Source: Mucilaginibacter sp. KACC 22063 (GTDB lineage Bacteria > Bacteroidota > Bacteroidia > Sphingobacteriales > Sphingobacteriaceae). Taken from it: DNA of 64,000 nucleotides. Every line of letters starts with the position of its first letter. Position 1 is the first letter of the stretch. The stretch spans positions 1,860,001 to 1,924,000 of the forward strand of contig NZ_CP117877.1 in the NCBI RefSeq assembly GCF_028736115.1. The letters run 5' to 3'. Made by a program: the position numbers and the translations under genes. Shown here in pieces: positions 23,495 through 24,315 of this stretch. The notes under the pieces were generated by a model. The model did no database searches. It had not been told where the DNA came from and worked only from the letters and a program-made list of their open reading frames with translations.

Positions 23495-23519
23495 GTTAAA
23501 AGCTGGACTTGTTATTTTA

Positions 23520-23607
23520 GCCTCACCCAACCCTCTCCGAAGGAGAGGGCTTAAAATAAATAGATTGCCATTACAGCTCCCTCCCTCGGGAGGGTTGGGT
23601 AGGGGTT
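23520..23607. repeat. Nested intergenic palindrome (CCCAACCCTC / GAGGGTTGGG)
   Basis: The outer arms CCCAACCCTC and GAGGGTTGGG are inverted. Each half contains its own hairpin: CCCTCTCC-GAA-GGAGAGGG (perfect 8-bp stem) on the left and CCCTCC-CTCG-GGAGGG on the right. The spacer includes AGATTGCCA, which matches the first nine bases of the neighbouring inverted repeat. This is a noncoding dispersed repeat type of a kind I recall from Bacteroidota genomes; copy number cannot be judged from one window. Confidence 0.7.
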
Positions 23608-23618
23608 AATTTAATAAC

Positions 23619-23647
23619 GTGTCATTGCGAGCGTAGCGTGGCAATCT
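23619..23647. repeat. Left 29-bp terminal inverted repeat of the GIY-YIG unit
   Basis: This 29-bp sequence (core CATTGCGAGCGTAGCGTGG) is an exact reverse complement of 24001-24029. It lies 43 bp upstream of the nuclease ATG. Beyond the 29 bp the flanks differ, and no clear target duplication is visible. Confidence 0.9.
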
Positions 23648-23690
23648 ATCTATTCAATTAAATGATATATTGCTTTATTAAACCTTGCTC

Positions 23691-24026
23691 ATGATGATTG
23701 GTATTCATCAATATTACCTATACATACTTACTAATAAAACAAATTCTGTTTTATATATCGGTGTAACAAGCAATCTCACTACTCGTATCTGGGAACATAA
23801 AACAAAAGTATTTAAAGGTTTTACATTGAAGTATAATTGCGATAAGCTTGTGTATTTTGAGAATTATCAATGGATACAGGACGCTATTAAACGTGAAAAG
23901 AAATTAAAAGCAGGGCCAAGGCAAAAGAAAATAGACTTAATATTAAATGAGATCCCTGCTGGAAAGATCTTAGTGAAGACTGGTATAAATAGTTTAGGTG
24001 AGATTGCCACGCTACGCTCGCAATGA
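23691..24026 (+). CDS. GIY-YIG nuclease domain protein, C-terminus apparently frameshifted
   Basis: An 111-residue single-domain protein. YYLYIL followed by VLYIGVTSN is the GIY-YIG core, TRIWEHK carries the conserved Arg, and AIKREKKLKAG the conserved Glu, so the catalytic set appears intact. These nucleases cut one DNA strand using a metal ion. The end is odd: another frame reads DPCWKDLSEDWYK and stops at 23990-23992, matching the tail I expect for this family, while the open frame instead continues as PAGKILVKTG and ends IATLRSQ inside the right inverted repeat. A one-base deletion (or equivalent) near 23940-23952 would explain this. The start at 23691 is chosen over the TTG at 23685. The gene is flanked by 29-bp inverted repeats and isolated between gdh and ccmE. 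Confidence 0.8.
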   Translation: MMIGIHQYYLYILTNKTNSVLYIGVTSNLTTRIWEHKTKVFKGFTLKYNCDKLVYFENYQWIQDAIKREKKLKAGPRQKKIDLILNEIPAGKILVKTGINSLGEIATLRSQ

Positions 24027-24029
24027 CAC
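24001..24029. repeat. Right 29-bp terminal inverted repeat, overlapping the nuclease 3' end
   Basis: The exact reverse complement of 23619-23647 (core CCACGCTACGCTCGCAATG). It encodes the last residues and the stop codon of the GIY-YIG open frame, and lies 8 bp after the presumed ancestral stop. Confidence 0.9.
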
Positions 24030-24083
24030 ATTTACTAAAACTACAAGACGTACTGTAATGAATTTTAAACATTTCTTCCTTTT

Positions 24084-24172
24084 GTCATTGCGAGCGTAGC
24101 GCGGCAATCGCGAACTATACAAGTATCATTTAAGGTGGGGGATTGCTTCTTCGTTTCACTCATCGCAATGAC
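24084..24172. repeat. Composite palindrome, third copy of the CATTGCGAGCGTAGCG repeat
   Basis: The left part GTCATTGCGAGCGTAGCG (then CGGCAATC) matches the inverted repeat with one change (GTGG to GCGG). The right part, 24141-24172, begins GATTGCTTC and ends TCGCAATGAC, an imperfect reverse complement of the left part. The whole can fold back on itself. Orientation of the left part is the same as that of the repeat at 23619. Confidence 0.8.
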
Positions 24173-24315
24173 GAATTGTTATAAGTATGGATTGCGACAT
24201 TAACAACGTTGGCAAGTCAACCTTGTATTTTGTTTCTGGACTCTTATCTCTATGCAAAGAATGATTCTAAATAATATATATGTGTTGTAATAAACATTAT
24301 TAGCCCCACGTTTTG

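Follow-up and report, generated by a model that had tools for sequence, protein, structure and literature searches.

We analyzed a stretch of 64,000 nucleotides of Mucilaginibacter sp. KACC 22063, which we call the window. At the locus described here, one GIY-YIG gene lies between two 29-bp repeats, and a second pair of related repeats (REPs) follows downstream. The features are as follows.

23619-23647, plus strand: left REP of the 'TGC' class, with its TGTC tag facing outward and an ATTGC...GCAAT stem; when inverted, identical to 24001-24029
23691-24026, plus strand: open reading frame of the GIY-YIG nuclease gene, ATG at 23691 or 23694, Pfam PF01541 (E = 2e-14, above cut-off), with two conserved Tyr and conserved Arg, His and Glu
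24001-24029, minus strand: right REP, inverted, overlapping the 3' end of the GIY-YIG gene
24083-24109, plus strand: third REP (a single mismatch), the left member of the downstream REP pair
24141-24171, minus strand: fourth REP (TCATTGCGATGAGTGAAACGAAGAAGCAATC), the right member of that pair

The initial annotation had described perfect 29-bp inverted repeats around a single GIY-YIG gene, and this was confirmed with its coordinates. The two 29-mers are exact reverse complements, and an inverted-repeat tool extended the arms to 23616-23647 and 24001-24032 at 97%. The window repeats start with TGTCAT and end with AATC. An alternative upstream start, TTG 23685, was given by the ORF finder in place of ATG 23691. 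The stop codon (TGA, 24024-24026) falls within the right repeat, therefore the terminal codons of the gene come from the repeat itself. A third related palindrome had also been reported; it is real (96% over 24083-24109) but not solitary, as it is one half of a +/- pair with 24141-24171, which belongs to the same family. As a correction, each 29-mer by itself forms only a weak, imperfect hairpin whose ATTGC/GCAAT stem is 5 bp long (z = -0.87 and -0.03 when folded as DNA). The downstream pair (24082-24176) folded better than shuffles as single-stranded DNA (z = -2.46). Directly 5' of the unit, at 23516-23609, we observed a further inverted repeat with 20-nt arms (CCTCACCCAACCCTC / GAGGGTTGGGTAGGGG), 80% complementary and 54 nt apart.

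The window protein is a member of the GIY-YIG nuclease superfamily, as judged by the domain and by the conserved Tyr, Tyr, Arg and Glu. Numbered from TTG 23685, the residues conserved among the loci compared were Y13 (138/138), Y24 (139/139), R34 (139/139), H38 (139/139) and E71 (136/138). The roles of the conserved GIY-YIG residues are established. Among solved structures we found no sequence relative; two ExbD matches (E 0.09-0.23) were taken as noise.

Repeats and nuclease genes of the host genome

The family pattern TCATTGCGAN{5,20}GCAATC matched 76 times in the 4.81-Mb single-contig genome, compared with 0 matches for the reversed pattern, so the repeat is far more abundant than expected by chance. 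The copies often form +/- pairs approximately 20-50 nt apart, a layout known as REPIN in the RAYT literature. No Y1_Tnp/RAYT gene was detected in this genome (0 PF01797 matches; Y1_Tnp was the transposase family searched). There were five GIY-YIG matches. Three of these nuclease genes adjoin three different REP classes, present in 76, 22 and 9 copies, and one of the three (L240) has REPs downstream only. The two besides the window gene lie at genome positions 4059878 and 4072546. The two remaining matches, L242 (beside tRNA-Met) and the more distant L005, are without REPs.

L242 brings in another small GIY-YIG clade, which was found near tRNA-Met (CAT) in 10/14 loci. Its genes are sometimes tandem with a period of approximately 350-370 bp (three copies in L295, two in L302), and in the host genome a partial duplicate of the tRNA 3' end together with the gene start follows L242 / L004 (1110514-1110726). 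This clade looks like a tRNA-targeting mobile unit.

Association of the nuclease with REPs

We searched the window protein against 149 genomes of the genus, and 123 of them matched at E <= 1e-10. From these matches, which exceed 106 in total, we examined 106 loci: an initial 30 (including the window's own), the next 60 by score, 13 lower-scoring ones and three host-genome paralogues. The 13 lower-scoring loci were chosen blind to their flanks (alignment start at query residue 2-3, 44-49% identity). Five loci at contig ends were dropped, and the 101 with at least 250 bp on each side were counted. A second set comprised 33 loci from named genomes, mostly Flavobacteriaceae by title; 29 had both flanks and four were dropped.

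A single REP pattern was not the whole story. Used alone, TCATTGCGA...GCAATC made the distant paralogues and most of the second-set loci seem free of REPs. A pattern-free inverted-repeat scan detected other stems at those loci, therefore we replaced the single pattern with a general stem pattern. As a REP unit we counted (C/T)GTCAT followed by three bases xyz, at most 30 nt, and then the reverse complement of xyz followed by A(T/C)C.

We observed a REP unit within 250 bp of the gene in 93/101 genus loci, with units on both flanks in 63, and in 29/29 second-set loci, with units on both flanks in 20; eight of the 101 genus loci had no unit on either side. In the genus, the density of REPs fell from 4.6/kb around the gene to 0.15/kb at distances above 1 kb, compared with 0.014/kb in mononucleotide-shuffled sequence, and the corresponding values for the second set were 4.8/kb and 0.07/kb. 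Where both sides carried a unit, the innermost order was +gene- in 39/63 genus loci (p = 6e-10) and 18/20 second-set loci (p = 2e-9), against a null of one in four. The other orders among the 63 were -gene+ (11), -gene- (8) and +gene+ (5).

Three controls were scored in the same way. For Y1_Tnp we took 60 loci, namely the 30 best in the genus and 30 from 15 genomes in which Y1_Tnp matches are weak throughout and REPs number 52-392; after three cut loci were dropped, one of 57 had a unit within the same 250 bp, and its stem was unlike the repeat families. For the gene adjoining the unit in the window (putative ccmE) 30 loci were fetched and three cut ones dropped; 4/27 had a unit within 250 bp, one of them being the window itself. 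In the tRNA-linked GIY-YIG clade it was 0/14, with some loci cut at contig ends. The link is therefore explained neither by transposase identity, nor by being an ordinary gene, nor by the GIY-YIG fold. A general bias of small genes or of GIY-YIG genes was ruled out by the last two controls, and RAYT as the driver was rejected after the Y1_Tnp search in the 149 genomes and in the 15 genomes described above. The expectation that this GIY-YIG subfamily lies beside the repeat more often than by chance was thus borne out.

Number of REPs and presence of the nuclease

We further compared the number of REPs between the 60 genomes lacking a strong nuclease match and the 89 that have one, where strong means an E exponent of 20 or better. 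The repeat is not spread regardless of the nuclease. The median was 71 REPs with a strong match and 21 without (per-Mb p = 3.5e-7, not corrected for kinship), although exceptions exist: at least 50 REPs were found in 16/60 genomes without a strong match, and at most 10 REPs in 9/89 genomes with one. Y1_Tnp genes were present in 133/149 genus genomes, and their presence alone was also associated with a higher density of REPs (median 11.4 vs 3.4 per Mb, p = 0.002, not corrected for kinship). In a linear model of REP number, likewise uncorrected for kinship, we obtained t = 4.7 for the nuclease, t = 5.4 for genome size and t = 0.9 for the Y1_Tnp count.

One of these 16 genomes, G026, carries 467 REPs of the window's class and gave no GIY-YIG match at E <= 1e-10; either it is a nuclease-free, REP-rich genome or its nuclease is too distant for this query. 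At one nuclease locus of another genus genome (L180, G130) five tandem REPs lie 5' of the gene with a regular 75-bp period, unlike REP pairs.

REP stem type and nuclease clade

The stem triplet of each locus was used as its label. In the genus we obtained TGC 79 times, TTC five, CGC and GCC three each, TCT twice, and AAC, AGC, TCC, GCT, CCT and CTC once each; eight loci were unlabelled. In the second set TCC (TGTCATTCCTGCGNAGGCAGGAATCCA) was found in 29/33 loci, TGC in two and TAC in one. Singletons may be due to chance. Mapped on the nuclease tree, stem class changed 20 times, compared with a shuffled mean of 52.7, and 0/200 shuffles were as low. The tree has 137 rows and few columns, 77/133 of its inner branches are open, and near-copies add to the clustering.

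In the close clade 79/84 labelled loci were TGC, the remaining five being CGC (3), AGC and AAC, and six were unlabelled. In the distant clades TGC was the label of 0/14 loci, with one unlabelled (close vs distant, p = 3.6e-13). No TGC unit of any kind was detected within 250 bp in the 15 distant-clade loci, though their genomes hold TGC repeats. REP stem type thus tracks nuclease clade.

Relatives in other phyla

When plasmid records were searched at the protein level, 32 records were returned, of which we fetched 15 to spread over lineages. A strict REP unit was present within 250 bp in 10/15 fetched loci, from Pseudomonadota, Cyanobacteriota and Bacteroidota, and absent in 5/15. The carriers were Planktothrix (Cyanobacteriota), Spirosoma (Bacteroidota, upstream only) and, among Pseudomonadota, Aeromonas, Rhizobium, two Shinella, Azospirillum lipoferum, Neisseria gonorrhoeae, Photobacterium (downstream only) and S. 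meliloti (upstream only). Two Sphingobium and one Novosphingobium loci had perfect 31-nt inverted repeats in which CGTCAC or CGTCGC replaces CGTCAT. The inverted repeat at the nuclease locus of Sinorhizobium K101 was weaker, and at that of Rhizobium tumorigenes we found none. The link between nuclease and REP therefore exists beyond Bacteroidota. The GIY-YIG frame of N. gonorrhoeae, which is 44% identical to the window protein over 75-78 aa, sits in a CGTC REP array.

Two of the plasmid-collection records are chromosome-sized (L274, Aeromonas caviae, 4.9 Mb; L281, N. gonorrhoeae, 2.2 Mb). On the Planktothrix plasmid (L273) the neighbours of the unit are an MmeI-type restriction gene on one side and the DISARM gene drmA on the other. 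A contig labelled Patescibacteria (L086, a MAG; label as given) has a REP-bounded GIY-YIG unit with the window's REP class.

Filled and empty sites, gene contexts and selection

We compared filled and empty sites between relatives, as the initial annotation had proposed. In A. lipoferum a REP-bounded unit lies between sufB and sufC, and three Azospirillum relatives with flanks 95-97% identical have neither gene nor REP at this site. In Sphingobium, strains MM7A and TYG73 have REP-gene-REP (the TYG73 gene with a one-base gap), TYG72 and TYG65 have a gap without a CGTC repeat, and TYG74 has a single bare palindrome that looks like the two outer REP halves fused. The Sinorhizobium gene lies inside a REP cluster beside a duplicate of its own 3' fragment; at the corresponding site, a relative whose flanks are approximately 95% identical has only REP-like sequence. 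The unit is thus present or absent at orthologous sites, through gain or loss, the direction being least certain for TYG74. Both states were found in Azospirillum and Sphingobium, but in the Azospirillum, Sinorhizobium and Sphingobium comparisons the boundaries had diverged too far to resolve a target duplication or the exact junction. At the window locus the flanking genes were adjacent in 3/11 relatives checked (L144, L146 and L148, none of them close), and the window's REP class was absent between these adjacent genes.

The 99 genus loci fell into 80 distinct gene contexts, where contexts were counted as different unless both neighbours matched. We observed strong purifying selection on the nuclease protein: dN/dS was at most 0.28 in the 14 computable of 18 pairs (the other four were saturated or had no synonymous change), and in pairs with dS > 0.2 it was 0.00-0.14.

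Interpretation

These surveys show a clade-specific physical association of nuclease and REP. We interpret the unit as a REP-associated nuclease locus, in which a stand-alone GIY-YIG enzyme is bounded by inverted CGTC-like REPs for which it is probably specific (probability roughly 0.6). The enzyme would nick its own REP, most likely while this is single-stranded or folded as a hairpin in the course of replication or DNA uptake. GIY-YIG enzymes are hydrolytic and are not known to join DNA strands, so copying would fall to host repair and recombination. Through these, REP pairs and occasionally the whole REP-gene-REP unit may be copied to sites that are new or already bear a REP. Kept by selection, the gene would stay at low copy, and the REPs would multiply as non-autonomous passengers, like REPINs around RAYT.

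A broader proposal is that dedicated stand-alone GIY-YIG nucleases, together with host repair and no transposase, maintain and multiply the CGTC-type REPs known from several phyla, nuclease and stem co-evolving as lock and key. We put this forward tentatively, as something that could well be wrong.

It may instead be that the nuclease recognises the REP as a chromosomal target and so tunes DNA uptake, recombination or repair, that the REPs spread otherwise, and that the gene stays beside them via REP-REP recombination. The strong purifying selection (dN/dS 0.00-0.14 at dS above 0.2), together with few matches per genome, suggests a useful host gene. The Neisseria relative, 44% identical, is placed among CGTC REPs, and such an enzyme (Ssn) was reported to modulate transformation in Neisseria. 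A host function alone, however, explains neither the 80 distinct contexts in 99 loci nor the joint absence of gene and REPs at orthologous sites. This explanation fits most of the data, yet we consider it rather unlikely; host function and REP spread may both apply.

We find it improbable that the gene is a passenger unrelated to the REPs, which landed by chance among common intergenic REPs or for which REPs are a preferred landing site. The gene-free Sinorhizobium relative, which already has REP-like sequence at the corresponding site, agrees with such a history. The three Azospirillum relatives with neither gene nor REP do not, the matching of stem to clade would be unexpected, and the control genes were far less often beside REPs (4/27 for the neighbour gene, 1/57 for Y1_Tnp and 0/14 for the other GIY-YIG genes).

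That RAYT or another transposase moves the REPs is very improbable: although Y1_Tnp occurs in most genus genomes (133/149) and REPs are denser there (11.4 vs 3.4 per Mb, p = 0.002), the host genome has no Y1_Tnp despite 76 REPs, within 250 bp only 1/57 Y1_Tnp loci had a unit, the stem of which is unrelated, and the Y1_Tnp count had no effect given nuclease and genome size (t = 0.9).

The REP-associated nuclease locus is thus the reading we prefer. It predicts that the nucleases discriminate between REP classes, each acting on the class by which it is bracketed and leaving the rest alone; the host genome offers three nucleases and three classes for this. If true, nuclease-driven spread would mean that dispersed repeats can be made without a transposase. 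As for the initial view of a nuclease-palindrome unit comparable with RAYTs, it holds only partly, in that the association is far above chance and the analogy is apt.

Comparison with known systems

Homing endonucleases of the I-TevI type have the GIY-YIG catalytic fold. The unit shares with them this fold and its presence or absence at orthologous sites. It differs from them in that we saw no intron or intein at the window unit, and both flanking REPs are intact, so the gene does not split its putative target (the REP, if that is what the enzyme recognises).

The closest enzyme family is probably Ssn. These are site-specific single-stranded nucleases of the GIY-YIG superfamily, reportedly described by Chenal et al. 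in Nature Communications in 2025; their reported target in Neisseria is a repeat present in hundreds of copies, and an enzyme of this type reportedly modulates transformation there. The N. gonorrhoeae frame that is 44% identical to the window protein is a putative Ssn. The likeness lies in the small GIY-YIG enzyme and in the position of the Neisseria relative within a CGTC array. If Chenal et al. already tie Ssn to REP-bracketed loci, the novelty of our analysis would be the breadth of the survey, the matching of clade to stem and the link to CGTC REPs.

RAYT/REPIN systems, for which our comparison draws in part on PMC3733652, resemble the unit in several respects: a low-copy enzyme gene is bounded by inverted REPs, many gene-free REP pairs lie elsewhere, and REP class is matched to enzyme class. 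In contrast to RAYTs and REPtrons, the window enzyme is GIY-YIG and not HUH/Y1_Tnp (0 PF01797 in the genome), and the REP tag is (C/T)GTC (TGTC in the window copy) and not GTAG. GIY-YIG enzymes also differ from RAYTs in being without known strand-joining chemistry. The comparison with RAYTs is therefore apt as an analogy but not by membership, as both the Y1 domain and the GTAG tag are missing.

The repeats are most similar to the CGTC-tagged REPs. According to Di Nocera et al. 2013 (PMC3733652), these REPs have no associated transposase genes, and the gene that mobilised them has perhaps vanished. The species for which that paper describes CGTC REPs include A. lipoferum and S. meliloti, both of which carry the nuclease unit here. 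Compared with the REPs described there, the window repeats share the CGTC/TGTC tag, the stem starting with AT and the opposite-orientation pairs; the Flavobacteriaceae repeats also share the 8-bp stem, the 4-nt loop and the CCA tail. A stem of 8-9 bp, a loop of 4-5 nt and the CCA tail were found in sequences of the Flavobacteriaceae, Aeromonas and Azospirillum relatives. The window copies differ from that published description (PMC3733652) in their shorter, imperfect stem (5 bp perfect) and in having no CCA tail. Since stem length and tail depart from CGTC REPs, we term the window repeat CGTC-like. Like CGTC REPs, the repeats studied here do not flank tyrosine transposase genes (1/57 Y1_Tnp loci, with an unrelated stem).

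The term GIY-YIG is absent from the available text of PMC3733652, and 'nuclease' and 'transposase' are absent from the available main text of a 2025 REP survey (PMC12306157). Among the matches listed in the open-licence literature, no title or abstract opening links GIY-YIG to REPs; such a link may be in print elsewhere.

In summary, these results suggest this nuclease as the missing partner of a bacterial repeat class. A candidate partner enzyme can thereby be named for the CGTC REPs, which in 2013 were described as apparently without a dedicated transposase (PMC3733652).
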